This document shows positions 2,651 through 47,515 of a DNA stretch of 64,000 nt, in pieces (position 1 is the first letter of the stretch; every line of letters begins with the position of its first letter). The stretch is from NCBI RefSeq assembly GCF_000429025.1, contig NZ_AUBB01000017.1:269157-333156 (forward strand), in the 5' to 3' direction. This DNA is from Actinospineispora spinosispora DSM 44797. Its GTDB lineage: Bacteria > Actinomycetota > Actinomycetes > Mycobacteriales > Pseudonocardiaceae. Made by a program: the position numbers and the translations under genes. Below the pieces are notes generated by a model that did no database searches, had not been told where the DNA came from, and saw only the letters and a program-made list of their open reading frames with translations.

Positions 2651-8299
<5,649 letters not shown>

Positions 8300-20065: not shown

Positions 20066-20076
20066 GCGGATCGACG

Positions 20077-21600
20077 ATGACCGAGACGACCCAGCGCGCG
20101 CTCCGGCTGTCCATGACCGACGTGTCGAAGCGCTACGGCGCCGTGCGCGCGATCCGGCACGCCGACATCGAGGTGGCGGCCGGCAGCGTGCACGCGCTGG
20201 TCGGTGAGAACGGCGCCGGCAAGTCGACACTGATCAAGATCCTGTCCGGAGCGGTCACCCCCGACACCGGAACGGTCGTGTTCGACGGCTCGCCCGCACA
20301 GATCACCAGCACGACCGACGCGCTGGCGCTCGGCATCGCGACCGTGTACCAAGAACCGCAGCTGTTTGCCGAGCTGACTGTCTCGGAGAACATCTTCCTG
20401 GGGCGTGAGCTGCGGTCCGGCCCTCGCATCGACTGGGCGGCGCAGCACGCCAAGGTCGTCGAGCTGCTCGACCTGTTGGGTATCCCGGCCGCAGCGGCGA
20501 CCGCCGCGGTCGGGACCCTCTCCATCGCGGAACAACAGCAGGTGTCGATCGCCAAGGCCCTCGCGGGTGACGCGAAGCTGCTGATCCTCGACGAGCCGTC
20601 GGCGATCCTGACCGACTCGGAGATCGAGGTCCTGTTCCGCGTCATCCGGCGACTCGCCGCCTCCGGCGTGGCGATCATCTACATCTCGCACCGGCTGGAC
20701 GAGCTGTTCCGCATCGCCGACGAGGTGACGGTCATGCGGGACGGCGCCACGTTGGGCACCTATCCGATGCGGGACCTGTCCGTCCGGGAGATCGCCGAGC
20801 TCATGGTCGGCGGAATCCTGAACGACGACACCACTCCGAGAGCGGTCGCGGACGGCCCGCCGGTGCTCGAGCTCGACTCGGTCGGCTTGGCGGGGCGGTT
20901 CCACGACGTCAGCGTCTCGGTGCGCGGCGGCGAGATCGTCGGGCTGTACGGCCTCGTCGGGTCCGGGGTCTCGGAGATCGCCAACACGATCTACGGGATC
21001 GACCCGGCCACCGAGGGCGAGCTGCGGCTCGGCGGAGAACCTGTGCGCCCGACGTCACCGCGTCAGGCCCAGAAGCTGGGCATCGCGCTGCTGCCCGCCG
21101 ACCGTAAGAAACAGGGCATGTTCGTCTTCCAGCCGATCTCGTTCAACATCTCGATCGGTCACCTGGCGCTGCTGTCGAAGTTCGCGGTGTGGATGGACCG
21201 GGCACGGGAACGGACGGTCGCGCGGGACCTGATCGAGCGGCTGGCGGTCAAGACACCCAGCGAACGGCAACCCATCGGCGCGATGTCCGGCGGCAACGCG
21301 CAGAAGGTCGTGCTCGCCCGCCAGCTGGTCGAACGGCCGGACGTACTGGTCCTCGCCGAGCCCACTCAGGGCGTGGACGTGGGTGCGAAGGAGGAGATCC
21401 ACCGCATCATCACCGCGCTCGCCGACGAGGGCACCGCGGTGCTGGTGGTGACCTCGGACCTGCCCGAGGCACTGCGCATCGCGGACCGCCTGCTGGTGGT
21501 CCGTGACGGCACGATCGTCGCCGAGTTCCACGGCGACGCCTCCCAGGTGGATGTACTCGCGGCCGCCGCCGGTGCGCGCGACGAGAGCGAGGTGTCCTGA
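20077..21600 (+). CDS. Sugar ABC transporter ATP-binding protein
   Basis: A 507-residue RbsA/RhaT-type protein with two ABC domains in tandem. The first has a full Walker A (GENGAGKST near residue 44) and Walker B (LLILDEPSAIL). The second is degenerate at Walker A (GLVGSGVSE) but retains LADRKK-type and SGGNAQKVVLARQL signatures, as is normal for this family. It powers import through the two permeases. It abuts the first permease with no spacer. Confidence 0.92.
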   Translation: MTETTQRALRLSMTDVSKRYGAVRAIRHADIEVAAGSVHALVGENGAGKSTLIKILSGAVTPDTGTVVFDGSPAQITSTTDALALGIATVYQEPQLFAELTVSENIFLGRELRSGPRIDWAAQHAKVVELLDLLGIPAAAATAAVGTLSIAEQQQVSIAKALAGDAKLLILDEPSAILTDSEIEVLFRVIRRLAASGVAIIYISHRLDELFRIADEVTVMRDGATLGTYPMRDLSVREIAELMVGGILNDDTTPRAVADGPPVLELDSVGLAGRFHDVSVSVRGGEIVGLYGLVGSGVSEIANTIYGIDPATEGELRLGGEPVRPTSPRQAQKLGIALLPADRKKQGMFVFQPISFNISIGHLALLSKFAVWMDRARERTVARDLIERLAVKTPSERQPIGAMSGGNAQKVVLARQLVERPDVLVLAEPTQGVDVGAKEEIHRIITALADEGTAVLVVTSDLPEALRIADRLLVVRDGTIVAEFHGDASQVDVLAAAAGARDESEVS

Positions 21601-22602
21601 GTGACGACCACGACCAAGCCCTCCCGGGTGCGGGTCATCGCTCCGCTGGTCACCGGCCAGGAGGTCGTGCTGATCAGCGTCATCGCGGCGCTGTGGCTGG
21701 TGCTCTGGTGGGCGACACCCGCCTTCCTCACCGCCGGCTCGATCAGGCCGCTGCTGATCGAGGTCGCGCCGATCGCTCTCATCGGTGTCGGTATGACGCT
21801 GGTGATCGTGGCCGCCGGCATCGACGTCTCGGTCGGCGCCGGCCTGATGGTGTGCGGCGTGATCACCGCGAAACTGCTGGTCGACGCCCAGGTGTCGCTC
21901 GTCGTGGCGCTGCTCGCGGCGATCGTCGTCGGCGCTGTGCTCGGCGCGGTCAACGGCGTGCTGATCGCTTGGGGGCGCGTGCACGCCATCATCATCACGT
22001 TCGGCACGCTCAACCTGTTCCAGTTCGTCGGCCGGCAGATCTTCGGGTCGCAGACGGTCAACGGCATACCCGGAACCCTGGACGTGTTCGGCCGGGGCAG
22101 TGCCGGGCAGACACTCGGCGTCCCGCACAGCTTCGTGCTCACCGCTGTCGTGGCGGGCGCGGTCTGGTGGTACCTGCGCCAGACCCCGGGCGGTCGGCAC
22201 TTCTACGCGATCGGCGGTGACCCGGTCGCCGCCGAGCTGGCCGGGATCCGGGTGCGGCGCAGGGCGCTGATCGCCTACGTGGTGACCGGTGCGCTGGTCG
22301 GGGTCAGCGCGCTGTTCACGATCGCCAAGGGGACCTCGACGCTCGACCAGAGCATCGGGGCGGGCAAGGAGCTCGCGGTGATCGCCGCGGTCGTCATCGG
22401 CGGAACCTCGATCATCGGCGGCCGAGGCTCGGTGCTCGGCACGATCCTGGGCGCGCTGCTCGTGCAGACCGTGTCCTCCGGCGTCACCCAGCTCGGCTGG
22501 CCGAGCGACCTGTCCGACCTGTTCGTCGGCATCTTCGTGATCGTCGCGGTCGGCGCGGACCTGCTCCGGCAGCGCACCCGGACCCGTCAGAGGGAGCTCT
22601 AG
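21601..22602 (+). CDS. Sugar ABC transporter permease 1
   Basis: A 333-residue membrane protein of the RbsC family: about nine hydrophobic helices, with the characteristic GIDVSVGAGLMVCGV stretch near residue 73, NGVLIAWGRVHAIIITFGTL near 117 and GGTSIIGGRGSVLGTILGA near 260. The GTG start directly follows the ATPase stop, and the stop directly precedes the next permease. The two permeases probably form a heterodimer. Confidence 0.9.
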   Translation: MTTTTKPSRVRVIAPLVTGQEVVLISVIAALWLVLWWATPAFLTAGSIRPLLIEVAPIALIGVGMTLVIVAAGIDVSVGAGLMVCGVITAKLLVDAQVSLVVALLAAIVVGAVLGAVNGVLIAWGRVHAIIITFGTLNLFQFVGRQIFGSQTVNGIPGTLDVFGRGSAGQTLGVPHSFVLTAVVAGAVWWYLRQTPGGRHFYAIGGDPVAAELAGIRVRRRALIAYVVTGALVGVSALFTIAKGTSTLDQSIGAGKELAVIAAVVIGGTSIIGGRGSVLGTILGALLVQTVSSGVTQLGWPSDLSDLFVGIFVIVAVGADLLRQRTRTRQREL

Positions 22603-23697
22603 ATGACGTCGACTCCCCAGCGAACCACGGAACCGGCACCGTCTCCGGAGAACGGGGCAGGCTCGATCTGGTCCCGCTCACTGCGGGCGGTGCTGACCAG
22701 GCGCGAGATCCTGCTGGTCATCCTCCTGATCGCGGTGCTGATCTGGATGACCTCGCTCAGCTACGGCGGCTACCTGACCGGCCCGTACGACCCCGACTAC
22801 CTGGCCGGCTCTCTCGTGGACGCCGTACCGCTGGCGATCCTGGCACTCGCCGAGCTGGTGGTGATCGTGTCAGGACGGGGCGGCATCGACCTGTCCATCG
22901 GCGCGATCGTCTCGCTGACCGGCATGGTCTTCGGACTCGCCTACGGCTCGTGGGGCTGGTCGCTCCCGGTGGCGGTGTTGCTCGCGCTCGTCGTGGGCAC
23001 CGTGCTCGGCGCGGTCAACGGGGTGCTGATCGCCTGGCTCGGGTTCCCCGCGCTCATCACGACACTGGCGACCTACTACGCGTACAAGTCGCTCGCCGTG
23101 GTGATCAACGCGCAGAAGCCGATCAGCACGCCGGACATCCAGAGCCTGTACTCGCTCACCGGCGCGGTGGAGATCCCGCTGATCGGCCGGAACATCCCGA
23201 ACGTCCCGCTCGGGGTGTTCACCTTCCTGGTGCCGGCGGTCGTGCTGCTGTGGCTGCTGCTGCAACGCACCACCTACGGACGGCGGCTGTTCGCGATCGG
23301 CACCAACGACGTCGCCGCGACCTGGGCCGGTGTGCACGTCGCCGGGACCCGGTTGCGTGCCTACGCACTGGCCGGGCTGCTCGCCGGAGTCGTCGCCGTG
23401 TACGTCACCGGGCAGTTCGCCTCGGCTCGCCCCGACGCCGGTACCAGCGGGAACGGGCTCGCGCTGCCGGCGATCACGATCGCCGTCCTCGGCGGTGTCG
23501 CGATCACCGGCGGCATCGGACGGGTGTCCGGTGTGCTGCTCGCCGCCGTCCTCATCACCTGGCTCAACGCCGGAATCCTGCTGCTGTTCGAAGGCAACGA
23601 GGGCACCCAGTTCCAGCTTCTCGCGCTCGGCGCGGTGCTGGTCTTCTGCGCGCTGCTCAACGCGTACACGACGAGGAAATACGGGGGTACCCGATGA
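22603..23697 (+). CDS. Sugar ABC transporter permease 2
   Basis: A 364-residue RbsC-family permease, paralogous to the preceding gene. It has an N-terminal cytoplasmic segment of about 35 residues, GRGGIDLSIGAIVSLTGMV near residue 88, and AVLGGVAITGGIGRVSGVL near 295. It completes the binding protein-ATPase-permease-permease set. The stop overlaps the start of the aldolase/dehydrogenase gene (ATGA). Confidence 0.9.
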   Translation: MTSTPQRTTEPAPSPENGAGSIWSRSLRAVLTRREILLVILLIAVLIWMTSLSYGGYLTGPYDPDYLAGSLVDAVPLAILALAELVVIVSGRGGIDLSIGAIVSLTGMVFGLAYGSWGWSLPVAVLLALVVGTVLGAVNGVLIAWLGFPALITTLATYYAYKSLAVVINAQKPISTPDIQSLYSLTGAVEIPLIGRNIPNVPLGVFTFLVPAVVLLWLLLQRTTYGRRLFAIGTNDVAATWAGVHVAGTRLRAYALAGLLAGVVAVYVTGQFASARPDAGTSGNGLALPAITIAVLGGVAITGGIGRVSGVLLAAVLITWLNAGILLLFEGNEGTQFQLLALGAVLVFCALLNAYTTRKYGGTR

Positions 23698-25739
23698 CCG
23701 ACCCGACTCGACCCGATGCCGTGCGCCAGCTGTTGGAACGATCCAATCGCCTCGGCTCCGACCCGGCCGTCACCAACTACGGCGGTGGGAACACCTCGGT
23801 CAAGGTGACCGTCGACAGCCCGGCCACCGGGAAACCCGTCGAGCTGCTGTACGTCAAGGGCTCCGGCGGCGACCTCGGCACGCTGCGTGCCGAGGGGCTC
23901 GCGGTGCTCGAACGGGACCGGCTCGTCGCGTTGGACTCGGTGTACCGCGGCGTCGAGCACGAGGACGAGATGGTCGAGCTGTTCTCGTTCTGTGGCCACG
24001 GCCGGGGCGGTGCGACACCCTCGATCGACACCCCGATGCACGGTCTCGTGGACCTGGACCACGTCGACCACCTGCACCCGGACTCGGTCATCGCATTGGC
24101 CTGCGCCGCCGACGGCGAGCGGCTGGTGCGCGAGATCTGGGGCGGCCGGGTCGCCTGGGTCCCGTGGAAACGTCCCGGCTGGGAGCTGGGCAAGGCCATG
24201 GCGGAGCTGTCCGCCGACCCCTCCGTGATCGGCGCCGTCCTCGGTGGGCACGGGCTGACCAGCTGGGGCGCCACGAGCGACGAGGTCGAGCAGCGTTCGC
24301 TGCGGATCATCGCGGAGGCCGCGGCGTACCTGGAGGAGCATTCGGTGGCCGAGCCGTTCGGTGCCGAGGTTCCGGGTCGGGCGGCGCTGCCGGCCGAGGA
24401 CCGCCGACGGCGCGCGGCCGAGCTGTTCCCGCACCTGCGCGCGGTCGCGTCGATGGACCGGCGCCAGGTCGGACACTTCACCGACAGCGACGTCGTGCTG
24501 GACTTCCTGACCAGGGAGAAGCTGGCACACCTGGTCAGCCTCGGCACGTCCTGCCCCGACCACTTCCTGCGGACCAAGGTGCGTCCGCTGCTCCTGGACA
24601 CCGCGCCGGACACGCCGCTCGACGAGGTCGTGAAGCGGCTCGGCGAGCTGCACGCCGAGTACCGCGAGGAGTACAGCGCCTACTACCGGCGCCACGCCAC
24701 GCCCGACTCGCCCGCGATGCGTGGTGCCGACCCGGCGATCATCCTCGTGCCCGGGGTCGGGATGTTCTCGTTCGGCGCGGACAAGCAGACCGCGCGGGTG
24801 GCCGGCGAGTTCTACGTCAACGCGATCAACGTGATGCGCGGCGCCGAGGGCGTCTCGACCTACGAGCCGGTGACCGAGGCCGACAAGTTCGCCGTCGAGT
24901 ACTGGCTGCTGGAGGAGAAGAAGCTCCAGCTGCGTCCGAAGCCCAAGGCACTGGCAGGCCGGATCGCCGTCGTGACCGGGGGCGCGTCCGGTATCGGGCT
25001 GGCGACGGCGACGATGCTCGCGGAGCACGGTGCGAACGTGGTGGTCGCGGATCTGGACGAGGCGAAGTCGTCGGCGGTGGCCGATGAGCTGGGCGGACCG
25101 GACCGTGCGGCCGGCATCGCGATGGACGTGACCGACCCGGACGCGATCACCGCCGGTATGGATGCCGCCGTGCTCGCCTTCGGCGGGGCGGATCTGATCG
25201 TCAACAACGCCGGCATCAGCCGCGCTGGCTCACTGGCCGAGACCTCGACCCAGGACTGGGATCTGCTCTACGACATCCTGGCGCGTGGCTCGTTCCTGGT
25301 GGCCAAGGCGGCCGAACCGGTTCTGCGGGCGCAGCGGCTCGGCGGGGACATCATCAACATCTGCTCGAAGAACGCGGTGTTCGCCGGTCCCAACAACGTC
25401 GCCTACTCGTCGGCGAAGGCGGCGCAGGCGCACATGGTCCGGCTGCTCGCGGCGGAGCTGGGTGAGATCGGCGTCCGGGTCAACGGCATCAACCCGGACG
25501 GAGTGGTGCGCGGCTCCGGGATCTTCTCCAGCGGCTGGGGTGCGTCGCGCGCCGCGACGTACGGCATCGACGAGTCCGAGCTGGGCAAGTACTACGCCAA
25601 CCGCACCGTGCTCAAGGTCGAGGTGCTGCCCGAGCACGTCGCGTCCGCGGTGCTGGCGCTGACCAACGGGACGTTGCCGATCACCACCGGGCTGATCGTT
25701 CCGGTCGACTCCGGGGTGCCCCAGGCATTCCTGCGATAG
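23694..25739 (+). CDS. rhaD: Bifunctional rhamnulose-1-P aldolase / dehydrogenase
   Basis: A 681-residue fusion. Residues 1-410 are a class II aldolase/AraD-like domain (NYGGGNTSVKV near 24; metal-ligand histidines in TPMHGLVDLDHVDHLHP near 115; VLGGHGLTSWG near 182). Residues 420-681 are a short-chain dehydrogenase (VTGGASGIG near 425, active-site YSSAKAA near 566). The known fused family splits rhamnulose-1-phosphate into dihydroxyacetone phosphate and L-lactaldehyde and then oxidises or reduces the aldehyde. The start at 23694 overlaps the permease stop. Confidence 0.88.
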   Translation: MTDPTRPDAVRQLLERSNRLGSDPAVTNYGGGNTSVKVTVDSPATGKPVELLYVKGSGGDLGTLRAEGLAVLERDRLVALDSVYRGVEHEDEMVELFSFCGHGRGGATPSIDTPMHGLVDLDHVDHLHPDSVIALACAADGERLVREIWGGRVAWVPWKRPGWELGKAMAELSADPSVIGAVLGGHGLTSWGATSDEVEQRSLRIIAEAAAYLEEHSVAEPFGAEVPGRAALPAEDRRRRAAELFPHLRAVASMDRRQVGHFTDSDVVLDFLTREKLAHLVSLGTSCPDHFLRTKVRPLLLDTAPDTPLDEVVKRLGELHAEYREEYSAYYRRHATPDSPAMRGADPAIILVPGVGMFSFGADKQTARVAGEFYVNAINVMRGAEGVSTYEPVTEADKFAVEYWLLEEKKLQLRPKPKALAGRIAVVTGGASGIGLATATMLAEHGANVVVADLDEAKSSAVADELGGPDRAAGIAMDVTDPDAITAGMDAAVLAFGGADLIVNNAGISRAGSLAETSTQDWDLLYDILARGSFLVAKAAEPVLRAQRLGGDIINICSKNAVFAGPNNVAYSSAKAAQAHMVRLLAAELGEIGVRVNGINPDGVVRGSGIFSSGWGASRAATYGIDESELGKYYANRTVLKVEVLPEHVASAVLALTNGTLPITTGLIVPVDSGVPQAFLR

Positions 25740-25748
25740 GGGAGAACC

Positions 25749-26612
25749 TTGTCCAACAAGATCGGAATCCACGCACTGGTGTGGGTCGGCGGCTGGAGCG
25801 AGCGCGAGGCACGCCACGCGATCAGCTCGTCAGCGGCGGCAGGCTACGACCTGATCGAGCTCGCGGCGATCCAGCCCGAGCTGTTCGACGCCGACCTGAC
25901 CGCCCGGCTGCTCGCCGAACACGGCCTGTCCGCCGGGGTGAGCCTCGGCCTGGACGACACGACCGACGTGTCCAGCGACGACCCGGACATCGTGGCGGCG
26001 GGCCGGAAGCGTCTGGACCTCGCGCTCGACCTGGTGCGTGACGTCGGCGGCGACTATCTGGGCGGTGTCATCTTCGGCAAGCTCGGCCGCTACACCACGC
26101 CGCTGACCGAACGCGGCAGGGCGCATTCCGTCGAGACGATCGCGCGGCTCGCCGACCGCGCCGCGGAGTCCGGCATCACGCTCGGGCTGGAGTTCTGCAA
26201 CCGGTACGAGACCAACGTGCTCAACACGACCGAGCAGACCCTCGCGTTCATCGCCGAGACCGGCCGGGACAACGTCGTCGCGCACCTGGACACGTACCAC
26301 ATGAACATCGAGGAGACGTCGTTCCGCGAGCCCGTCCTCGCGGCGGCCGCGGCGGGCAAGCTCGGCTACGTGCACGTCGGCGAGTCGCACCGAGGGCAGC
26401 TGGGCACGGGCTCGGTGCCGTGGGCCGAGTTCTTCGAGGCGCTGCACGAGGTCGACTACCGCGGCACGATCACGTTCGAGTCGTTCTCCTCCGAGGTGGT
26501 CCACCCGACCCTGTCCTCGGCGTTGTCGATCTGGCGCAACCTGTGGACCGACGGCATGGACCTGGCAACCGGAGCCCGAGCGTTCCTGAAGCAGAACTAC
26601 GAAACCCGCTGA
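25749..26612 (+). CDS. TIM-barrel sugar isomerase/epimerase
   Basis: A 287-residue xylose-isomerase-like TIM barrel, closest in appearance to the D-psicose/D-tagatose 3-epimerase group: metal ligands are suggested by GLEFCNRYE near residue 147, AHLDTYHMNIEE near 180, YVHVGESHRGQLGTG near 203 and TFESF near 239. Classical L-rhamnose isomerases are about 420 residues, so this protein either replaces that step or acts on another ketose. The TTG start is preceded by GGGGAGAA. It is the last gene of the operon, nine bases after the aldolase gene. Confidence 0.8.
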   Translation: MSNKIGIHALVWVGGWSEREARHAISSSAAAGYDLIELAAIQPELFDADLTARLLAEHGLSAGVSLGLDDTTDVSSDDPDIVAAGRKRLDLALDLVRDVGGDYLGGVIFGKLGRYTTPLTERGRAHSVETIARLADRAAESGITLGLEFCNRYETNVLNTTEQTLAFIAETGRDNVVAHLDTYHMNIEETSFREPVLAAAAAGKLGYVHVGESHRGQLGTGSVPWAEFFEALHEVDYRGTITFESFSSEVVHPTLSSALSIWRNLWTDGMDLATGARAFLKQNYETR

Positions 26613-29788: not shown

Positions 29789-29821
29789 TGCTGGGGGTTG
29801 CAGCCGGAGGTGAGTTCGCTC

Positions 29822-32800
29822 GTGCGTCCTTGGGCGAAGAACACGGTGTACGAGTGGCTCGTCGCGCGACTGGCCGAGCTCAGCGGACTACCGGCCGAGG
29901 CCATCGACGGACGTGAGCCCTTCACCCGGTTCGGGCTCGACTCCGTCAGCGTGACAGCACTGGCCGCCGAGCTGAGCGAAGCATCCGGGCACCGCGTCCC
30001 GCCGACGGCGCTGTGGGCCCACCCGACCCCGCGAGCGCTCGCGGCGGCGCTGGACGGCGAGGACGGGACGCCGGTCGCGGAGGCGGCTCGGCGAACGGAC
30101 GACCCGATCGCCGTCGTCGGGCTGTCCTGCCGGTTCCCTGGCGCGCCCGACGCCGACCGGTTCTGGGAGCTGCTGAGCACCGGGGCCGACGCGATCGGAG
30201 ACATGCCGGCTGACCGGTGGACCGGTGGGCGGCGAGCCCGCGGCGGTTTCCTCGACCAGGTCGACGGGTTCGACCCGGAATTCTTCGACATCTCACCGCG
30301 CGAGGCCCCGCACATCGACCCACAGCAGCGGCTCGTGCTCGAACTGGCCTGGGAGGCGCTCGAAGACGCCGGCATCGGTCCGAGGAGCCTCGGTGGAAGC
30401 CGGACCGGTGTCTTCATCGGCGCCATGTGGAACGAGTACGGCGCCGGCATCCAGGCCGATCCCGACCTGGTCACCCAACACTCGCTTTCCGGCGGTGACC
30501 CGAGCATCATCCCGGCGCGCGTCTCCTACCACCTGGGGCTGCGCGGCCCGAGCCTGCAGGTCAACACCGCGTGCTCGTCGTCGCTGGTGGCGGTGCACCT
30601 CGCGGCGCGCAGCATCAGGGACGGCGAGTGCGAGCTGGCGCTCGCCGGCGGAGTCAGCCTCATGCTCGGCAAGGACACGATGACCGCGCTGGAAGGCCTC
30701 GGTGCGCTCTCGCCGAACGGTCGGACGAAGGCCTTCGACGCGAGCGCCGACGGCTACGGCCGCGGCGAGGGCGCCGGCCTCGTCGTACTGAAACCACTGG
30801 GCAGGGCTGTCGCCGACGGCGACCCGATCTACTGCGTGATCAAGGGCAGCGCGGTGAACCACGACGGGTTCTCCAACGGGCTGACCGCGCCGAGCCCGGC
30901 CGCGCAGGAGGCGATGCTGCGCGACGCCTACGCGCGAGCCGGCGTGGCGCCCCACGACGTCCAGTACGTCGAGGCGCACGGAACCGGCACCGTCCTGGGC
31001 GACCCGATCGAGGCCGGTGCGCTGAGCGCCGTCCTCGGCGCGGACCGGCCGTCCGACCGGCCGCTGGCGATCGGATCGGTGAAGAGCAACATCGGGCACC
31101 TGGAGCCCGCCGCCGGCGTTGCCGGACTGATCAAGGTGGCGTTGTCGATGCGTCACCGTGCTCTGCCCCCGACCGTGGCCGTGAGCGAGCCGAACCCCCA
31201 CATCCCGTTCGCCGAGTGGCGGTTGCGATTACCACGCCAGCTGGAGCACTGGCCGGCGGACGAGCACGGCCGGCTCGTCGCGGGTGTGAGTGCGTTCGGG
31301 TTCGGCGGCACGAACTGCCACGTCGTGCTGGAAGGGGACGCCACGACGCCGACGCGGGCGGTCACGCTGTCGGCCGACAGCGACGAAGGACTGCGGGACA
31401 TCGTCCGGAGGCTGGCGAACACCGAGGACGGTCAGGATCTCGACCGGCTGACGTCCTCGATGCGCGACACCGGCGGTTCCCACCGGCTGGCGCTGTCCGC
31501 CCACGACCGGGCCGAGCTCGCTTCTCGCGCGCGGAGCCACCTGGCGGGTCACGAGGTTCCCGGGGTGTCGGCCGGACGAGCGACCGGACAGCGGCCGAGG
31601 GTCGTCTTCGTGTTCGGCGGCCAGGGCTCGCAGTGGGCCGGGATGGGCGCACGGCTGATGCGGGTCGAGCCGGCGTTCCGCGCGGCTCTCGCGCGGTGCG
31701 ACGCGGCGCTGCGACCGCACACCGGCTGGTCCCTCGTCGAGCTGCTGACCTCGGACGACGACGACTGGAACGAACGGACCGACCTGGCCCAGCCGGCGAT
31801 CTTCGGGATGCAGGTCGCGCTCGCCGAGATGTGGCGCCACCGGGGCGTGGAGCCGGACGCAGTCGCCGGGATGAGCATGGGAGAGGTCGCCGCGGCACAC
31901 GTCGCCGGTGCGTTGAGCCTCGACGACGCCGCGCTGATCATGGCTCGGCGCAGCCGTCTCGCGGCGTCGCTGAGCGGTCGTGGCGCGATGGCGGTCCTGG
32001 AACTCTCACCCGACGACACGGCACAGCGCCTGCGGTCTCACCCCGACCAGGTGTGGATCGCGGGTCTCGCGGGCCCCCGGTCGACGATCATCTCCGGTGA
32101 CCGCGCCGCCGTGGAGTCGATCCTGCGTGGGCTCCACGACGACGGTATTCGCGGCGGGTTGATCCGCGTCGACTACGCGTCGCACTGCCCGGTCGTCGAC
32201 GGCGTACTGCCGGACCTGCGCGTGGCGCTCGCCGGCGTGCGGCCCGCGCAGCCGAGGCTGCCGTTCCATTCCTGCGCCACCGGGCGACGGATGGCGGGCA
32301 CCGAGCTGACCGCCGAACACTGGGCGCGCACCGAACGGGACCCGTGGCGGTTCGCGCCGGTCGTCGAGGAGCTGGCCGCCCAGGGAAACTGCGTCTTTCT
32401 CGACGTCAACCCGCATCCGGTGCTGACCCCGGTGCTGGCGCAACACGGTGTGGACGGGTTCGGTTCGTTGAGCCGAGCTGACGACGGCCGCACCACGATG
32501 ATCGATTCATGGGGCGCCCTGTACGTCCGGGGGGTGACTCGCCCGGCGTCGGACGACGACCGTCAGCGGCTGCTCCTGCTGTCGGCCCGTTCCCACGAGT
32601 CGTTGCTCACCGCCGCGGACCGGATGGCGGATCATCTGCTCGCCGAGCCGCCCCCGTCCCTCCTGGACGTGTGCCACACGGCGGGAGCGCGGCGGGACCA
32701 CCACGAGCACCGGCTCGCCGTGGTCACGGGCACCCGGGGGCACACGGTCGAGCTGCTCCGCTCCGTCGCCGAGGGACTGTTCCCCGGTGGCGTCGAGCTG

Positions 32801-35800
32801 GGGCGCGCCGAACCCGACGAGCAGCCCGGCCCCGTTCTGGTCTTCTCCGGCCAGGGTTCCCAGTGGGCGGGCATGGGACGTCGGCTGATGGCCGACGAAC
32901 CGGTGTTCCGCGCGGTGATCGACGACTGTGACGAGCTGCTGCGTCCGCTGTCCGGATGGTCGTTGGTCGACGAGCTGTGCGAGGACCCCGACGACAGCAG
33001 GCTCGCGCGCACCGACGTGGCACAACCGGCGCTGTTCGCCGTGCAGGTCGCGCTGACCCGGCTGTGGCGTCACTGGGGCGTGGAGCCGGCCGCGGTGATC
33101 GGCCACAGCGTCGGCGAGGTCGCGGCCGCGCACGTCGCGGGTGTGCTGCCGCTCGACGAGGCGATCCGGGTCGTCTGGCACCGGGGCAGGCTGATGCGCG
33201 AGGCAGCAGGCGCCGGCCGGATGGCGCAGGTCGAGCTGCCGGTCGGTCGCCTCGCCTCCCAGCTGGGCGAATGGGCTGATCGGGTCGCGGTGGCGGCGGT
33301 CAACGACCCCGATTCCACCGTCCTGTCCGGTGACGCCGAGGCGGTCGCCCAGGTGCTCGCGCGGCTGGGCAGAGCCGGCGTGGCCTCCCGTGAGCTGAGG
33401 GTCGAGTACGCCTTTCACAGCCCGGCCATGGAACCGGCGCGAGCGGCGCTGACCGGTGCACTCGGCGAGGTCGCATGTGGGCCGGGCACGGTGCCGATCG
33501 CCAGCACCGTGACCGGAACCTGGCGGGACGGCAGCGACTTCGGCGCCGGACACTGGGCAGCCACGGTCCGCGACACCGTGCGATTCGCCGACGCGGTGGG
33601 CGCGGCGATCGCGGCGGGCCACCGGAGTTTCGTGGAGATCGGGCCGCACCCAGTACTGCTGGAGAACGTCCGCCGATGCCTCGCCTCGGCGGCCGTGCGG
33701 GGACGTGTGGTCGGCTCGTTGCAACGCGACCGGGACGACCGGGACGCGATGCTGCGCGCAGCGGGTGCGCTGCACGTGCAAGGCCTCACGCTCGACCTCG
33801 ACCGCGTGGGTGGTTCCGCCGAGGGCACGGTCGTGCCGTTACCCGCGCCGGTCTGGCGGCGCGAACGGTACTGGCTCGCGGCGGACCGGCATGCGGTGGT
33901 CGACGGCCACCCGCTGCTGGGCCCCGGTCTGACGTCGTCGATCGAGCCCGGAACCCGGTACTGGCAGCGGAAGCTCGACCCGGCGCGGCTGCCGTACCTG
34001 ACGGACCTGCGAGTCCACGGGGAACCTGTCGTGTCCGCCGCCGTGTTCGCCGAGCTGGCGGTCGCGGCCGCGACCGACGCCCAGGGGCCCGTGACACTGA
34101 CAGGCCTGCGTTTCGAGCGCATGTTGCCGCTCGACGGTGTTCCGCCGCTCGTCCAGGTCGTCCACACCCTCGGGGACGGGGCGTTGTCGATGTCGAGCAG
34201 CCCGGGTGACCCGGGCAGCGACTGGGTCCGGCACGCGGTCGCGACCGCCACCGTGCCGGCGGCCCGGCGCGAGCCGGCTGAGACACCGGACGACATCCGG
34301 CGGCGGTGCACCCGGGCGCGGTCCGGCACGGAGCACTATCGGCTGCTCGCCGACGCCGGGCTCGACATCACCGGCGACTCGGCCGCCGTGCGTGACCTGT
34401 GGTTCGGGCCGGACGAGGTGCTCGCGCGGATCGTGCTCCCCGAGTCGGCCGGACACGTGGCCGGCTACCACGTCCATCCCGCGCTGCTCGACGCCGCGCT
34501 CCAGAGCCTGATCGCACTGCGCGCCGAGCGGGCCGGCGTGCAGGTCGTGACCGGGATCGACCGGCTCACCACGTGGGCCCGGCTCGGTGGGTCCGTCTGG
34601 GTACACGCCCGCGCCGACGGTGACCTGCTGGTGTTCGACGACGCGGGTGTGGTCGTGGCCGAGGTCGGTGGTGTGCGGCTGCGGCCACTGGCGCCCCCGG
34701 GCGACCGCGATCCGCTGCACGACCGGATGTACACGCTGACCTGGCACCGCCACGAGCACCTCCCGGCCCCCGCGCCGGTGGACCCCGCTTCCTGGCTGGT
34801 GCTCACGGACCCGGACGGCCCCGGGCACGCGCTCGCGCGAGAGCTGCGCGACCACGGCCAGCTCAGCACCGTCGTGACCACGGCGGACATCGAGCCGAAC
34901 GAGCCGGACCCGCACCTGGCCGGTGATCCGCCCTCGGGCATCGTCGTTGCCTGGGACCAGCCGGTCGCCTCGGTCGAGGCGCTCGTCGCGGCGGTCGCGC
35001 GACGAGGCTGGCGGGATTCGCCTCGACTGTGGCTGGTGACCCGGAACTCCAGAATCGTCGGCTCGGACAGCCACCAGACGCCGCCCCGGCAGGCCGCGCT
35101 CTGGGGCCGGGGCGCAACGATCGCGCTGGAGCACCACGACCTGTACTGCACACGGATCGATCTGGCGTCCGAGCCGGATGCCGAGGACGTCAGGCGGCTG
35201 GCGAACGAGCTGCTCACCGACGCGGCGGACCGTGAACCAGAGGTGGCGCTGCGCCGGGACGGCCGATATCTCGCGCGGCTCGAACGGTTCCCCGCCGGGC
35301 AGCTCCGGGATGTCTCGCTGTCCCGGGACGGAGCCCACCTCGTCGTGACCGACGACCGGGAGCTCGCCGGAGTACTCGCAGAGTGGCTGGTCGGACTGGG
35401 CGTCCGGGAGGTGGTGGTCGCGGACCGGTCGGGCACGGTCGGTCACCTCACGGTGGCGGGCGCCCAGGTCTCGACCGTGCACTGTGATGTCTCCGACGAG
35501 GGCCGGCTCACCGAGCTGCCGGGTCACCTGCGCGGCGTGGTGTACGCCCAGAGCGGCAGTGCCGGCGCGTGGAACCTGCATCGGCACAGTCCCGGCCTGG
35601 AGCTCTTCATGCTGTTCTCGTCGGTCGCCTCGCTGCTCGGCTACCCGGGCGGCGCCGCCGACGCGGCCGTCCTCGACGCGATCGCGGCCTCCCGCCGCGC
35701 TCAGGGCCGGACCGCACTGAGTATCAACGTCGTCCCCGCCGGCACCCCGGCACTGGGCGTCGGCGGTGTGCCGATGGCCGACGTGACCGGGGCGATGACG

Positions 35801-36335
35801 CGCGCGCTGGGTACCGGCCTCGGCCAGCTGGCGGTCATGACGTTCGATCCCCGGCAGTGGGCGGAGTCGTTCCCCGGCGCCGCCGGGTCACCGCTGCTGG
35901 CCGTGACCTCGGCCCGGGCCGGAACGACGCCGCTCGGCGACCGGATCGCCTCGGCGACCCCGGGGGAGCGGCTCGACCTGGTCGAGGCGCACCTGATCGA
36001 ACAGCTCGCCCTGACCGTGGGCCGGCGGCGGGACAGCCTGGACCGGTCGACGACGTTCCGCAACCTGGGGCTCGAATCGTTGATGGCGGTGGAGCTGCGC
36101 AACCGGCTGGAAGCCACGCTCGGTGTCGAGCTGTCGGTGGCGGCCCTGTTCAGCCACGCCACGATCGCGGCGCTCGCCGGGCACGTCCTCGGCGAGCTGG
36201 GACAACCGGCCCCGGCCGTCGAGGAGGAACCGGAGGACTGGGCGGACCTGGAACACGACATCGCGGAGATGTCCGACGCGGAGGCCGAAGCCGTGTTGCT
36301 GGCGAGCCTCGCCCTGGTCGAGGAAGGACTCCGAG

Positions 36336-36343
<8 letters not shown>
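29822..36343 (+). CDS. Type I PKS: ACP-KS-AT-AT-(DH)-(KR)-ACP
   Basis: A 2173-residue synthase. Domains: N-terminal carrier (GLDSV, Ser41); KS about 95-500 with Cys251 (TACSSS), EAHGTGT and NIGH; AT1 about 590-890 (GQGSQ, GMSMGE, YASH); a second KS-AT-type linker; AT2 about 1000-1290 (GHSVGE, YAFH); DH about 1355-1620; KR about 1630-1970; C-terminal carrier (GLESL, Ser about 2085). The DH motif HxxxGxxxxP reads LRVHGEPVVS, so the catalytic His is Leu and the Pro is Ser. The KR lacks GGxGxxG, its Tyr is Asp (GGAADAA) and the Lys region is deleted. Both reducing domains should be inactive. The ATs differ in specificity motif (methylmalonyl-like, then malonyl-like). The GTG at 29822 is preceded by GGAGGTGA. 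Its stop overlaps the next gene by 8 bp. Confidence 0.85.
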
Positions 36344-41656
<5,313 letters not shown>

Positions 41657-41660
<4 letters not shown>

Positions 41661-44600
41661 GTGGTGCGTCCCCCGACGTCGAGGCCCGCTACCGGTCGCG
41701 GCTGGTCAGCGCGGCGTCCGCGCTGCGCGAGCTGCAAGGCCAGGTCGACCGCCTGCGCCGGGAGAAGACCGAACCCATCGCGGTCGTCGGCATGGGGTGC
41801 CGGTTCCCCGGCGGCGGCGACGACCCGGAGTCGTACTGGTCCATGCTGCTCGACGGAACCGACGCGGTGTCCGAGCGCTACCCGGACGCGCCGGTCACCG
41901 AGGCGCGGTGGGGCGCCTTCCTGGAGGGCACGGACACCTTCGACGCCGCGTTCTTCGGCATCTCACCGCGCGAGGCCGCCCGGCTCGACCCGCAGCAGCG
42001 GCTGCTGCTGGAGGTGTCCTGGGAAGCGCTCGACGACGCCGGGGTGGTGCCGTCGAGGCTCGCCGGCACCGACACCGGAGTGTTCGTCGGGATCAGCGGC
42101 AACGACTACCTGCTGCTGGGGTCGAACGAACGGGACGGCTACATCGGCACCGGGACCGCGCACTGCTTCGCACCCGGACGCCTGTCCTACCTGCTCGGCG
42201 TGCACGGACCGAGCCTCGCGGTGGACACCGCCTGCTCGTCCTCGCTGGTCGCGGTGCACCTGGCGATGCAGAGCCTGCGCAGCGGGGAGAGCGCGCTCGC
42301 GGTGGCCGGTGGGGTCAACCTGATCCTGGACCAGGCCGGGACACAGATCGTGGCCGACCTCAAGGCCTTGTCGCCCGACGGCCGGTGCCGCACGTTCGAT
42401 GCGCGCGCCAACGGGTTCGTGCGGGGCGAAGGGTGCGGGGTGGTCGTGCTGAAACGGCTGTCCGACGCCGAGGCGGACGGCGACCGGGTGCTCGCGGTGC
42501 TGCGCGGTTCGGCTGTCAACTCGGACGGTCGCTCGGCGGGACTCACCGCGCCGAACCTCGTCGCCCAGCGGGCCATGCTCGTCGGCGCACTGGAGTCATC
42601 GGGTCTGCCCGCCGAGCGGATCGGCTACATCGAGACACACGGAACCGGGACCGCGCTCGGCGATCCGATCGAGTACGAGGCACTGACAGAGGTGTTCGGG
42701 ACGCCCCGGGCGGACGGCACGCCGTGCGTGCTCGGCGCGGTCAAGAGCAACATCGGCCATCTCGAGGCGGCCGCCGGGATCGCCGGGCTGATCAAAGCGG
42801 TACTGGCACTGCGGCACGGGCGGATTCCGGGCAACCTGCACTTCCGCACGCTCAACCCGAGGATCTCGCTGGACGGCACGCCGTTCGTGATCCCCACCGT
42901 GGCACGCGACTGGCCGGCGACCGACACACCGCGCGCCGCCGGGATCAGCTCGTTCGGCATGAGCGGCACCAACGCGCACCTCGTGCTGACCGAGGCCGCG
43001 CCGCAACCCGAGTCGCCCACGAGCGCCGGGCCGGTTCTGGTGCCGTTGTCGGCCCGTGACCCGCACGCGCTGACCGAACTCGCCGTCAGGTATGCGGACC
43101 TGCTGGATCGCGACGAGCACGCCCTGGCGGACCTCGCGTACACGGCCGGTGTCCGGCGCGGCCATCACAGCAGGCGCACGGCGGTGGTCGGGGAGTCGGC
43201 CACCGAGGTCGCCGAAGGACTGCGGGTGTTCGCCCGACGTCCGGTGGAACCGACCCCGGCGCCGGACGTACCGACGGTCGGGTTCGTGTTCTCCGGGCAG
43301 GGCAGCCAGTGGATCGGTATGGGCCGGGAGTTGCTGGCGACCGAGCCGGTCTTCGCCGAGGCCGTGTCCCGGTGCGACGTGCTGATCGCGAAGTACGGCT
43401 CGTTCTCCCTGCTGGAGGAGCTGACCGAGGGCTCGGCTCTGCACCGGACGCGGATCGCCCAGCCCGCCATCTTCGCCGTCCAGGTCGCGCTCGCCGCGTG
43501 GCTCGCCCATCAGGGCATCCGGCCGGACGCGGTGATCGGCCACAGCGTCGGTGAGATCGCCGCCGCGCACGTCGCCGGGGCGCTGAGCCTGGAGGAAGCC
43601 ACCCGCCTGGTCGTCACCCGGGGACGGATCATGGCCCGCGCCGAGGGTTCCGGCGCGATGGCGGCAGCCGCGGCGAGCCCGGAGGTGGCGACGGAGGCGC
43701 TGTCCGGCACCGGCGTGGTGATCGCCGCGGTCAACGACGCCCGGTCCGTCGTCCTGTCCGGGCCGGCCGAGCAGCTGGCCGAGGTGACGCGGAGGCTGAC
43801 CGCCGGCGGCGTGCGCTGCCGGCCGCTGCAGGTGGACTACGCGTTCCACTCGCCGGCGATGGCGCCGCTGGCCGAGGAACTCGCGCGAGACCTCGGACCG
43901 GTCGAGACGGGCAGGACCGGCTGTTCCTTCTACAGCACCGTTCTCGGCGAACGAGTCGACGGCACGCACCTGACCACCCGGTACTGGGCGCGCAACGTCG
44001 CCGATCCGGTGCGGTTCGCCGACGCGCTGAGCGCCGCGGCCGCCGACGGCCACCAGGTCTTCCTCGAACTGGCACCGCACGCGGTCCTGTCCGCGAACAT
44101 CCGGGAGAGCGGTGTGACGTCGGTGCCGACGTTGCGCCGGGAGCGTCCGGAGAGACGCGCGCTGCTCGAGGCACTCGGCGCTCTCTACACGGCCGGATAC
44201 CCGGTCGACTTCGCTCGGCTGTACCCGGCGGGCGGCACCGTCCGCTCATTGCCGAACTACCCGTGGCGCCGGGTCCGCCACTGGCTCGACGAGCCGGGAC
44301 GGCGGTCACCCTCGGCGGCCACCCCGGACCCGGTACTGGGCACCAGGCTCGACGTCGCCGGCACCCTGGCCGTCTTCGAGAACGAATGGGCTCCGGGCCG
44401 CACCCCACCGGCGATACCGGACCTGGTGCACGCCGGAGCGGTCCGGGTGCTGGGTACCCAGCGGATCGCGGTGACGGAACTGTCGGTCGAGCGGATGCTC
44501 ACCGCGCCGTGCCGAGCGCAGCTCGTCCTGCGCGCCGACGACGAGACCGTCACGGCGACGGTCTACAGCAGGACCGGGGACGGACCGTGGACGGCGCATG

Positions 44601-44938
44601 CGCGCGGGCGGGTCGATGCCGCCGGGTCCGCCCCATGGCCGGACGAGGTACGTGCGCTGCCCGCCACCGAACGGGAGACCGTGGTGGGGGACGCGGTGCG
44701 TACCGACGTGTGTGCCGTGCTGCAGCTGCCCCCGGACTTCCAGCTGCCCCTCGACGAGCCGCTGACCGAGCTGGGCATGGACTCGCTCATGGCCGTGCAG
44801 GTGCGACACGAGCTCGCCGCGCGGACCGGCTGGGAGCTGCCGTCCACCCTGGTCTTCGACCATCCGACCCCCCGGGCCGTCACCGGGTACTTGTTGCGGC
44901 TTCTCGCCGGGGAACCCTTGGAGGAAATGGCTTCATGA
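41657..44938 (+). CDS. Type I PKS: KS-AT-(DH remnant)-ACP
   Basis: A 1093-residue synthase. A docking helix (SAASALRELQGQVDRLRREK) precedes the KS (Cys193, ETHGTGT, NIGH), AT (GHSVGE with Ser630; YAFH, malonyl-like), about 130 residues resembling the shell of a DH N-terminal half (VLGTRLDVAGTL to RGRVDAAGS) without an HxxxGxxxxP motif, and a carrier (GMDSLM, Ser1043). No thioesterase or reductase release domain follows, so the last carrier ends the line. A beta-keto product and off-loading by another protein or by cyclisation are the simplest reading. It overlaps both neighbours by four bases. Confidence 0.87.
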
Positions 44939-45594
44939 AGGTCTACGGAACCGCCACCAGCGCGGCCACCCATCCGGTGCTGATGGTGCTCGCGGAGAAG
45001 GAGCACGAGGCGGAGCTGGTCCACGTCAGCATCCTGAAGGGCGAGGACAAGCTGCCCGAGCATCGACGGCTCCAGCCGTTCGGCGAGGTCCCGGTGCTGG
45101 AGGACGACGGTTTCCTGCTGTACGAGTCCCGGGCGATCATGCGCTACCTCGACCGGCGGCTGCCCGGCATCCAGCTGAGCCCCGCCGATCCCCAGGCCTG
45201 GGCGTTGATGGAGCAGTGGATCAGCATCGAGCAGTGCTACGTCAGCTCGCCGGTCTGGGAGATGGTCCGCTCCGGCCCGGTGTACGACATCATCCGGCGC
45301 AGTGTCGGCATGGAGCTGCCCCCGCCGCCCGACGCCGCCGGGGTCGCGGCCGCCCGTTCCACGCTCGCCACGGCGTTCGACGTCGCCGACACGACACTCG
45401 GCGGGCAGCAGTACCTGGCCGGGGACACCTTCTCCCTCGCGGAGGTGTCCTGGCTGCCGTACCTGCAGTACCTGGTCGCGTCGAACGGCGGTGACCTGAT
45501 CACCGAGCGCCCCAACCTCGCCAGGTGGTGGGCGGCGATCAGCACCCGCCCGAGCTGGGCCCGCGTCGGCCACGTACTGGAGGAAGCTGAGTGA
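44935..45594 (+). CDS. Glutathione-S-transferase-like protein
   Basis: A 219-residue protein with the GST fold: a thioredoxin-like N-terminal domain (MKVYGTATSAATHPVLMVLAE; FGEVPVLEDDGFLLYESRAI with the cis-Pro and Glu-Ser of the G-site, about 44-63) and a helical C-terminal domain (GDTFSLAEVSWLPYL near 162). Actinomycetes use mycothiol rather than glutathione, so it may act on another thiol or as an isomerase of an unsaturated chain, as maleylacetoacetate isomerases do. It overlaps the third synthase (ATGA) and the P450 gene (GTGA), a firm operon position. Confidence 0.83.
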   Translation: MKVYGTATSAATHPVLMVLAEKEHEAELVHVSILKGEDKLPEHRRLQPFGEVPVLEDDGFLLYESRAIMRYLDRRLPGIQLSPADPQAWALMEQWISIEQCYVSSPVWEMVRSGPVYDIIRRSVGMELPPPPDAAGVAAARSTLATAFDVADTTLGGQQYLAGDTFSLAEVSWLPYLQYLVASNGGDLITERPNLARWWAAISTRPSWARVGHVLEEAE

Positions 45595-46784
45595 ACCGGT
45601 TCGACCTGTGGGCCGAACAGATGAGTGTCGACCCGCTGCCGACGCTCGCCAGAATGCGCGCCGAAGCACCCTTGGTGCGCCTGCACAACCCGAACCAGGA
45701 CGCGCCGGAATGGCACGTGACCCGGTACGCCGACGTCGTGGCGCTGCTGCGTGACCCTCGGTTCAGCAAGGACAAGCGCAAGCTGTCCGACGAGGCCAGG
45801 GGCCGGTACTTCAGGGTCACGGAGTTCGATGGTCTCGACAAGCACATGCTCTTCGCCGACCCACCCGAGCACACGAGGTTGCGCTCGCTCGTGGCGAAGG
45901 CCTTCACCCCGCGCAGGATCGCGGACCTGCGGCCCTCGGTCGAGAAGGCGACCGAGCGGCTGCTCGACGAGGTCGCCGAGCACACGGAGGTCGACCTGCT
46001 CGACGCGTTGGCCTTCCGGCTGCCGATCACGGTGCTCGCCGAGCTGATCGGGATCCCGGTGACCGACCAGGATCGGTTCCGGGAATGGACCGGCATCCTC
46101 GTCGCGCCCGCCGACTTCGACCAGCTGCGCCGGATGGTGATCGAGCTGGAGGAGTATCTGGGGCAGTTCCTGGCGATGCGCAGGCGTCACCCGGGTGACG
46201 ACCTCACCAGCGCGCTGCTCGCCGCCGAGCAGGATGGTGACCGGCTGTCCCCGGTCGAGCTGATGAGCATGACGTTCCTGCTGGTGGCGGCCGGGTTCGA
46301 GACGACGGGCAACGTCATCGGCAACGGGGTGTGGGCTCTGTTGCGTCATCCCGAGCAGCTGCGGCGGCTGCGCGGCGAGCCGGAGCTGATCGGGTCCGCG
46401 ATCGAGGAGATCCTCCGGTGGTGCCCCTCGGTGAAGAACACCACCGGCGTCTTCCCGCTCACCGACGTCGAGTTCCTCGACACGGTGATCCCCGCCGAGG
46501 AGATGGTGATCGGCTCGATCCTGTCCGCACACCACGATCCCGAGGCGTTCGACCGGCCGGAGCTCTTCGACATCGCGCGGACGCCGAACAAGCACCTGGC
46601 GTTCGGGCTGGGCACGCACTTCTGCCTGGGGTCCTCGCTGGCCCGCGTGGAGGCGTCGGTGGCGGTCGGCGCGGTGGTGCGACGGTTCCCGGCACTGCGC
46701 TGCGCCGCCGACCCCGACGCGCTCGCCTGGAAGGACGGCGTGTTCATCCGAGGTCTCGAACGACTTCCCGTGGAGGTGCGATGA
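45591..46784 (+). CDS. Cytochrome P450
   Basis: A 397-residue bacterial P450. The heme thiolate is in FGLGTHFCLGSSLAR near residue 343; the I-helix oxygen-activation motif is AGFETTG near 233; EEILRW near 269 provides the ExxR pair. No ferredoxin or reductase gene adjoins it, so redox partners must come from elsewhere. It probably hydroxylates or otherwise oxidises the polyketide. It is coupled to both neighbours by four-base overlaps. Confidence 0.92.
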   Translation: MNRFDLWAEQMSVDPLPTLARMRAEAPLVRLHNPNQDAPEWHVTRYADVVALLRDPRFSKDKRKLSDEARGRYFRVTEFDGLDKHMLFADPPEHTRLRSLVAKAFTPRRIADLRPSVEKATERLLDEVAEHTEVDLLDALAFRLPITVLAELIGIPVTDQDRFREWTGILVAPADFDQLRRMVIELEEYLGQFLAMRRRHPGDDLTSALLAAEQDGDRLSPVELMSMTFLLVAAGFETTGNVIGNGVWALLRHPEQLRRLRGEPELIGSAIEEILRWCPSVKNTTGVFPLTDVEFLDTVIPAEEMVIGSILSAHHDPEAFDRPELFDIARTPNKHLAFGLGTHFCLGSSLARVEASVAVGAVVRRFPALRCAADPDALAWKDGVFIRGLERLPVEVR

Positions 46785-47404
46785 CACTCGAGGTGCGTCA
46801 GGCGAGCCTGGCCGACCTGGACGACATCATGTCGGTCGAGGCCGACTGGGAGGAGTCGCAGCGGGCGAGCCGGGAGCAGATGGCGACCCGGTTGGAGAAG
46901 TTCGCGGCCGGGTTCTGGCTGTACGAGCAGGACGGCGAGGTCGTCGGCACGCTGATGAGCTTCCCGCTGCGGTACGCCCCCGAGGAGGTCTCCCAGCTCA
47001 GCAGCTGGGACCGGGTGACCAATGAGGGCGACTATCCGGACATCGACCTGGCTTCGGCCAACGGGCTGTACCTGGCGTCCGGTTCGATCAAGAAACGGGC
47101 GCGGGGCAGCACCGTGTACGTGGCGATGATGGAGACCCCGGTCGATGCGGCCAGGGACATGGGCTTGAGGTACGTGCTGGCCGGCGCGAAGATCCCCGGT
47201 TACGACGCCTACTGCCGCCGCTTCGGCGACGTCGACGCCGCGGACTACGCGTTCCGCCGTCTCGGCGGTGCCCTGGTCGACCCGTTGCTGGAGATGTACC
47301 GAGGTCATGACTACCACGTCCCCGACCGCGCGCACATCGTGAAGGACTACTATCCCGATCCGCCGAGCCGCGATTACGGAGCCCTGGTGGTCCGAACGCT
47401 CTAG
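46781..47404 (+). CDS. GNAT-family acetyltransferase-like protein
   Basis: A 207-residue GCN5-related fold: RQASLADLDDIMSVE at the start, WLYEQDGEVVGTLMSFP (beta3-beta4, about 47-63) and a central VYVAMMETPVDAARDMGLRYVL acyl-CoA-binding stretch near 107, with the glycine-rich loop weakly conserved. It could acetylate the product, load a starter, or help off-load the chain; related folds in other PKS systems decarboxylate and transfer malonyl groups. It is the last gene of the six-gene unit, with the start overlapping the P450 stop. Confidence 0.72.
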   Translation: MTLEVRQASLADLDDIMSVEADWEESQRASREQMATRLEKFAAGFWLYEQDGEVVGTLMSFPLRYAPEEVSQLSSWDRVTNEGDYPDIDLASANGLYLASGSIKKRARGSTVYVAMMETPVDAARDMGLRYVLAGAKIPGYDAYCRRFGDVDAADYAFRRLGGALVDPLLEMYRGHDYHVPDRAHIVKDYYPDPPSRDYGALVVRTL

Positions 47405-47515
47405 CCGGACACAGCGTATTCGCCGTATCGGCTTCCGGTATATTGATGTAGTTATGATTCGCGGGACGTTGCCCGTGATACGTGTCAATTCAATGTGAAG
47501 AAAGTGGGCTACCCG

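Follow-up and report, generated by a model that had tools for sequence, protein, structure and literature searches.

How are the two carriers of a polyketide synthase (PKS) charged when two acyltransferases (ATs) stand side by side in it and its reductive loop is inactive, and what would such a protein help to make? The question is raised by PKS1, encoded at 29822-36343 on the forward strand of the window, the whole stretch of 64,000 nucleotides from Actinospineispora spinosispora DSM 44797 that was analysed. PKS1 was found to belong to the published 'separated starter' design, which comprises myxobacterial synthases and JomP1 of Streptomyces. With two further synthases (PKS2 and PKS3), a glutathione S-transferase (GST) family gene and a GNAT-like gene (plus a P450 gene) it forms a rare cluster shared with four Sorangium-family genomes, including that of Sorangium cellulosum So ce26. 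We consider it fairly likely that PKS1 is a split-loading starter whose malonyl-type starter unit would be decarboxylated on the synthase, at the head of a three-module line with the redox pattern of 6-methylsalicylate. The domain order is an oddity already described; what the analysis adds is a rare cluster whose members share an inferred redox programme, and a residue-based split of the starter ATs.

Domain organization of PKS1

The PKS1 frame was followed from a GTG at 29822 to a TGA at 36341-36343, giving 2173 amino acids with no internal stop. GGAGG lies 11 bases 5' of the start, and the alternative in-frame starts are GTG at 29810 and TTG at 29798. Pfam returned, in order, an acyl carrier protein (ACP), a ketosynthase (KS; N and C domains with associated parts), two Acyl_transf_1 stretches, both dehydratase (DH) parts, a partial ketoreductase (KR; profile positions 114-177 of 180) and a second ACP. 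This annotation and the hidden Markov model (HMM) architecture bore out the order ACP-KS-AT-AT-DH-KR-ACP given in a preliminary description of the locus. The ACP ahead of the first KS (Pfam, local HMM) and the two adjacent full ATs after it (Pfam, local HMM, alignment) mark PKS1 as a split-loading starter joined to a first extension module.

The loading carrier ACP0 (29846-30055; Pfam PP-binding in two stretches, local HMM residues 9-78) carries GLDS at residue 38. In KS1 (30095-31351; Pfam, local HMM) the TACSS, HGTGT and NIGHLE motifs are intact, with an active Cys, so that it is not a KSQ domain. AT1 (31601-32533, residues 594-904) contains GGQGSQ, GMSMGE, an Arg in ARRSRLA, and DYASHC, and is followed by a linker of the KS-to-AT type (32534-32830) matched by Pfam CurL-like_PKS_C (residues 917-977) and, with RhiE-like_linker, over residues 917-985. 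AT2 (32831-33784, residues 1004-1321) contains SGQGSQ, GHSVGE, HRGRLM and EYAFHS; both ATs were delimited by Pfam, local HMM and motif alignment. The remaining domains are the DH (33908-34702), the KR remnant (34721-35791, approximate limits; partial Pfam KR at residues 1914-1972) and ACP1 (35981-36190; Pfam, local HMM, motifs), which carries GLESLM. The full GQGSQ/GxSxGE cores, the pairing of YASH with GMSMGE and of YAFH with GHSVGE, and the linker of its own ahead of AT2 had all been described correctly.

Relatives and published precedents

MiuA of the miuraenamide synthase is ACP-KS-AT-AT-KR-ACP, with the KS separating the first AT from the first ACP, and soraphen, myxothiazol, myxalamid and chondramide were named as further cases of this loading type (PMC10051162). 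JomP1 of the jomthonic acid pathway (Streptomyces caniferus) is ACP-KS-AT1-AT2-KR-ACP and nearest to StiA of stigmatellin; the conjecture that the first AT handles the starter and the second the extender is reported in the same paper (PMC6117699). Both the domain order and the divided labour are already in print, and one published case is actinobacterial.

Relatives were sought by a genome scan with the AT1-linker-AT2 region and by whole-genome searches. The scan used two short AT peptide patterns and kept the best 80 of 584 relatives, a sample rather than a census; AT-AT in one frame was found at 6 of these 80 loci. Both approaches together gave at least 14 other synthases in which a single frame encodes two neighbouring ATs: a second copy in the same genome, one in a congener (G011), five in So ce26, and one each in Myxococcus xanthus AM003, an Acidobacteriota metagenome-assembled genome (MAG), Crossiella, Saccharopolyspora, a deltaproteobacterial MAG, and the Sorangium-family genomes G705 and G706. 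At least four of them start exactly ACP-KS-AT-AT-DH-KR-ACP (G011, in which the protein goes on with KS-AT; M. xanthus AM003; the deltaproteobacterial MAG; So ce26 locus L141). With these and the published cases, the earlier suggestion that no described system has this order proved wrong.

The second split-loading synthase of the same genome (L028; G000 C11, about 243.5-252.2 kb) reads ACP-KS-AT-AT-DH-ER-KR-ACP-KS, where ER is an enoylreductase, and its DH and KR motifs are intact. So ce26 holds at least five split-loading starter synthases (L139, L140, L141, L142 and L143), among which the residue at the AT1 Arg position discussed below differs. An acidobacterial module (L036:8639-15725) was scored KS-AT-DH-KR-KR-ACP, with two consecutive KR domains.

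In the KS tree, KS1 of all 15 split modules fell within a 17-row clade (SH-aLRT 99). The other two rows came from single-AT KS-AT-ACP modules of Sphaerisporangium (L071) and of G066, the genome of the Frankia locus; L138 and L084 are absent from the random rows of this tree. Strict monophyly of the 15 split-module KS1 domains was not rejected in the approximately unbiased (AU) test (p-AU 0.37). KS1 of PKS1 is 72% identical to that of G706. Tandem ATs are common to the KS clade, and the arrangement therefore arose before PKS1.

The N-terminus of Pks13, of mycolate synthesis, is likewise ACP-KS-AT, and the preliminary description proposed fusion of such a protein as a plausible origin of PKS1. 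This origin was not supported. Against solved proteins KS1 scored 665 bits with 7zma (the sum of two stretches), 472 with PikAI, 427 with CurL and 416 with Pks13, and AT1 scored 231 with PikAI and 116 with Pks13. Pks13 is thus not the nearest solved relative of either domain, and KS1 stands in the split-loading clade. The NCBIfam Pks13 model gave 1042 bits on PKS1 against a cut-off of 2100, below membership of the Pks13 type.

The tandem acyltransferases and the starter unit

AT1 and AT2 share 46% identity, and the AT at the corresponding position in G705 and G706 matches each of them at 57-58%. An AT segment duplicated recently or by assembly error, the latter raised as a concern in the preliminary description, was rejected because each AT matches its positional counterpart in G705 and G706 better than its neighbour.

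Both ATs keep GQGSQ, the active Ser, the catalytic His and the Arg, which speaks against the case of one non-functional AT that had also been considered. A different arrangement was weighed, in which a single AT supplies both carriers while its neighbour stays idle, or in which just one unit is loaded. It has been proposed for JomP1, whose AT2 its authors thought inactive (PMC6117699), and that precedent counts in its favour. The kept sites in both ATs of PKS1 make it improbable here; AT1 moreover forms a clade with the AT1 domains of G705 and G706 at SH-aLRT 100, the same grouping of AT2 reaching just 47. From their residues, AT1 is most likely the starter loader and AT2 the extender loader. 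The division of labour proposed earlier fits these residues and the conjecture in print (PMC10051162, PMC6117699), its loading roles standing as predictions.

The residue at the carboxylate-binding position was compared across the split modules. In malonyl transferases this Arg binds the free carboxylate. It is present in 15/15 second ATs. Among first ATs it is present in seven of 15 (PKS1, G705, G706, the second copy of the same genome, G011, So ce26 L142 and the Acidobacteriota MAG) and replaced in eight, by Tyr (L140, L143, L139, L158), Trp (Crossiella, Saccharopolyspora), Gln (L141) or Glu (M. xanthus). On this comparison the split-type starter ATs fall into two classes by residue, from which the starter chemistry can be predicted in a testable way.

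The probable SorA is So ce26 L140; the strain, the order of its domains and an 8818-aa frame next to it, set beside the known protein sizes, point to this identity. So ce26 is the soraphen producer (PMC10051162), and a benzoyl starter has been conjectured for the soraphen synthase (PMC6117699). If L140 is SorA with that starter, loss of the Arg would there go along with a non-carboxylated starter. AT1 probably takes malonyl- or methylmalonyl-CoA, since it keeps the Arg, a prediction drawn from this one anchored case. AT2 is predicted to take an extender that is probably malonyl.

A rival account keeps the same split-loading module and has AT1 take up a preformed acyl-CoA that is non-carboxylated, with an acetyl, propionyl, branched or aryl group. 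The type has been interpreted in this way in print, as a conjecture for the soraphen, myxothiazol and miuraenamide synthases (PMC10051162, PMC6117699), and GMSMGE is atypical for an extender AT. AT phylogeny leaves room for it as well: AU tests did not reject one clade of all first ATs (p-AU 0.543) or of AT1 with the SorA-type first ATs (p 0.757). The free tree does not join the first ATs and requires 4 changes of the label, but a tree constrained to unite all 15 was 2.87 log units better. Long AT sequences of L128, L019 and L138 were dropped from the tree, and AT neighbours are biased towards the two peptide patterns of the genome scan. We nevertheless hold a non-carboxylated starter to be rather unlikely, on the ground that AT1 and its two close relatives keep an Arg that is absent from the first ATs of the SorA type, of Crossiella and of Saccharopolyspora.

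Reductive domains and redox programme

The sites of the module-1 reductive loop were read from motif alignments. In the DH, HxxxGxxxxP is LRVHGEPVVS, with His replaced by Leu and Pro by Ser; the second-site Asp is kept (HPALLDAALQ). In the KR, TGGxGxxG is VTDDRELAG, the NADPH motif and the Lys region are lost, the Tyr site aligns with PGG---AADAA, and one Ser is left (FSSVAS). The losses listed in the preliminary description for both domains were confirmed. The local KR profile made no call in PKS1, and the NCBIfam KR prefix gave a weak match of 30.8 bits against a cut-off of 35. Both domains are inactive.

Module-1 KR regions were compared in 13 of the 15 split modules, L139 and L154 having no KR called in them. 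The Tyr and Lys are lost in four (PKS1, So ce26 L141, G705 and G706) and kept in nine, and the four are exactly the cluster members readable at this point. Their lesions differ: PKS1 carries deletions, So ce26 has Arg in place of the Tyr and Gly in place of the Lys, and G705 and G706 lack the DH and retain a remnant of the KR.

PKS2 (36336-41660, + strand) is KS-AT-DH-KR-ACP with intact DH and KR motifs (Pfam, motif alignment). The Tyr and Lys of its KR are kept in 4/4 clusters, and the KR motif is LDD in three, including this one, and LED in So ce26. PKS3 (41657-44938, + strand) is KS-AT-(unassigned stretch)-ACP; Pfam and the HMM architecture showed neither a reductive domain nor a thioesterase. 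Reduction is confined to module 2, and the same inferred redox programme is present in the four readable clusters. Module 1 would leave a keto group, module 2 a double bond and module 3 an unreduced unit, which is the redox pattern of 6-methylsalicylate.

The unassigned stretch of PKS3 (44186-44686) comprises about 165 residues between AT and ACP with no Pfam match; by eye it resembles a worn-down DH half, and in G705 it is 62 residues long.

Two dead domains and a possibly vestigial stretch in PKS3 might be taken for a decaying pseudogene or an assembly artefact. This is hardly credible: 2173 codons run without a stop, the active-site motifs of KS, AT and ACP are kept, the same order recurs in other genomes, and the KR was lost by different lesions in different relatives.

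Conservation and origin of the gene cluster

Downstream of PKS3, all on the + strand, lie a GST-family gene (44935-45594; Pfam GST_N and GST_C; 58-71% identical in the four related clusters), a cytochrome P450 gene (45591-46784; Pfam p450) and the gene for the GNAT-like protein (46781-47404), for which the Pfam Acetyltransf_1 match is weak (E 0.0035, below the gathering score) and the fold model was unusable (mean pLDDT 34.6). Identity of the GNAT-like protein across the four related clusters is 60-66%. So ce26 has the same set at 12.686-12.706 Mb, with an amidohydrolase in the place of the P450. Identities there are 41% for PKS1, 50-60% for PKS2, up to 61% for PKS3, 58% for the GST and 60% for the GNAT-like protein. 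In its assembly the AT of the So ce26 PKS3 is split across two frames (L160, about 6900-7000). In G705 and G706 the order PKS1-PKS2-PKS3-GST-P450-GNAT is kept and PKS1 and PKS2 are fused; identities are 56-57% for PKS1 (ACP to AT2), 68-71% for the GST, 65-66% for the P450 and 64-66% for the GNAT-like protein. A 5.5-kb contig of G724 holds the end of PKS3, the GST, an amidohydrolase, the GNAT-like gene and another P450. The GST and GNAT-like genes are present in 5/5 clusters.

The distribution of the cluster was surveyed with the GNAT-like protein as marker. It was found in 1/62 genomes of the genus (E up to 1e-5), 1/60 relatives and 1/296 of a phylum sample (1e-20), always the source genome, and in 1/282 of a sample of the phylum of So ce26 (1e-10), So ce26 itself. 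In the family of So ce26 it was found in 15/108 genomes, four at 61-67% identity and eleven weakly at 23-30%. The G+C content of the cluster is 72.3%, with flanks at 68.9% and 69.0%. Composition names no donor, because the related clusters of G705 and G706 have 66 and 68% and the So ce26 stretches 74-75%. The simplest reading is that the cluster was probably acquired from a myxobacterium.

Proposed pathway and product

In the proposed pathway AT1 would reach past KS1 to load the starter onto ACP0 at the N-terminus, and AT2 would load the first extender onto ACP1. KS1 would take the starter from ACP0 and condense it with the unit on ACP1. The starter would probably arrive as a malonyl or methylmalonyl unit and lose its carboxylate on the synthase; we infer KS1 as a candidate for this step, with its Cys and not a Gln. 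The dead DH and KR of module 1 would leave the diketide as a ketone, PKS2 would extend, reduce and dehydrate, and PKS3 would extend without reduction to R-CO-CHx-CH=CHy-CO-CHz-CO-S-ACP. C2-C7 ring closure could then give an alkylsalicylate, once the double bond is cis. Trans-to-cis isomerisation in 6-methylsalicylic acid formation has been speculated (PMC4797705). Candidate roles for the remaining proteins are isomerisation of the double bond or help with cyclisation (the GST-family protein), release or transfer of the acyl group (the GNAT-like protein) and oxidation of the product (the P450). By analogy the line may be a non-iterative one of the alkylsalicylate type, with a small aromatic acid as its predicted product.

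Several observations weigh against this account. The AT substrates are assigned from motifs: YASH is taken to indicate methylmalonyl and HAFH malonyl (PMC6164871), and YAFH (AT2, PKS3) and VASH (PKS2) match neither; GMSMGE of AT1 departs from GHSxGE. In the So ce26 cluster Gln replaces the Arg of AT1, and starters may differ between cluster members. In So ce26 the Gly of HxxxGxxxxP is Gln or Glu in the PKS1 and PKS2 DHs (Glu in PKS2), and dehydration there is uncertain. Fungal and bacterial 6-methylsalicylic acid synthases (6-MSASs) have been reported to work without dehydration at the triketide stage (PMC4797705), so the analogy is one of outcome and not of step order. No thioesterase was found in PKS1-3 by Pfam. 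The GST gave 49.6 bits with NCBIfam maiA (cut-off 171), below membership of the maleylacetoacetate isomerases; its best solved relatives include phi-class GSTs, and at the S-x-C site this protein has Ala where the four other copies have Cys. A glutathione-dependent role in this host is doubtful because MshA is present over its curated cut-off (exceeded in 1/14 control genomes) and just two partial glutathione-synthetase matches were found, both slightly above Pfam's low cut-off. MshA and the high G+C content point to an actinobacterial host.

The product might also be non-aromatic, the tetraketide leaving as a linear acid, a pyrone, or an amide formed through the GNAT-like protein. We regard this as a tenable alternative, if somewhat short of probable. 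No cyclase domain was found, nor the thioesterase sought above, the GNAT-like gene is constant in the clusters, and a trans olefin is predicted from LDD, a motif that goes with trans olefins but not always, some KRs before cis-forming DHs having it (PMC11228615). The same inferred redox pattern persists in four clusters despite differing module-1 lesions, however, and the GST gene is as constant as the GNAT-like gene; both speak against this alternative.

In its most specific form, the preferred account becomes a non-iterative three-protein 6-alkylsalicylate line with split loading by two malonyl-type ATs, a first reductive loop disabled by differing lesions in different lineages, and a GST-family protein of myxobacterial origin. 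That protein would carry out the trans-to-cis isomerisation or cyclisation for which iterative synthases use one enzyme, and would do so without glutathione in an actinobacterium. All of this together is unlikely. A salicylate product, if true, would mean an assembly-line route to the ring, with a stand-alone protein for bond isomerisation. Salicylate-type rings are known to us from iterative enzymes only. A literature search that covered mostly papers outside subscription journals found nothing on point for this cluster or for a non-iterative 6-methylsalicylic acid line.

Surrounding genes

A small protein beside the cluster (47495-47977) resembles the nucleoid silencer Lsr2. The 1882-aa product of 2651-8299 combines parts of a biotin carboxylase and of a biotin carrier; it scores below the cut-offs of the matching families and is possibly an acyl-CoA carboxylase. 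Sugar ABC transporter genes lie at 17396-26612; the binding protein is RhaS-like, below cut-off, and the ATPase, permeases and an isomerase-like gene were read by eye. Elsewhere in the genome (G000 C10, about 70-217 kb) is a very large modular PKS region with frames of up to 7434 aa.

Comparison with known systems

PKS1 shares the ACP-KS-AT-AT-...-ACP order with the starters of the soraphen, myxothiazol, myxalamid, chondramide, stigmatellin and miuraenamide (MiuA) synthases, and in them, as in PKS1, the first AT is proposed to serve the starter and the second the extender. KS1 of the probable SorA falls in one clade with that of PKS1. In contrast to these myxobacterial starters, AT1 of PKS1 keeps the carboxylate-binding Arg and the entire module-1 reductive loop is dead. 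JomP1, compared by its published description, is likewise actinobacterial with ACP-KS-AT1-AT2-KR-ACP, and differs in having no DH, an AT2 that its authors held possibly inactive, and other cluster content. Pks13 shares the ACP-KS-AT N-terminus, but KS1 and AT1 are not nearest to it and no thioesterase domain was found in PKS1-3.

The likeness to 6-MSAS lies in the inferred redox programme, a starter with three extensions and one reduction. That enzyme is a single iterative module (KS-AT-TH-KR-ACP, where TH is a thioester-hydrolase domain; PMC4797705), whereas Pfam places three separate modules here, in a three-protein line without a TH. The clusters of So ce26, G705 and G706, for which no product is known to us, have the three-module set, the GST, the GNAT-like gene and the dead module-1 KR in common with this one; G705 and G706 differ from it in the fusion of PKS1 with PKS2 and in a module 1 without DH.

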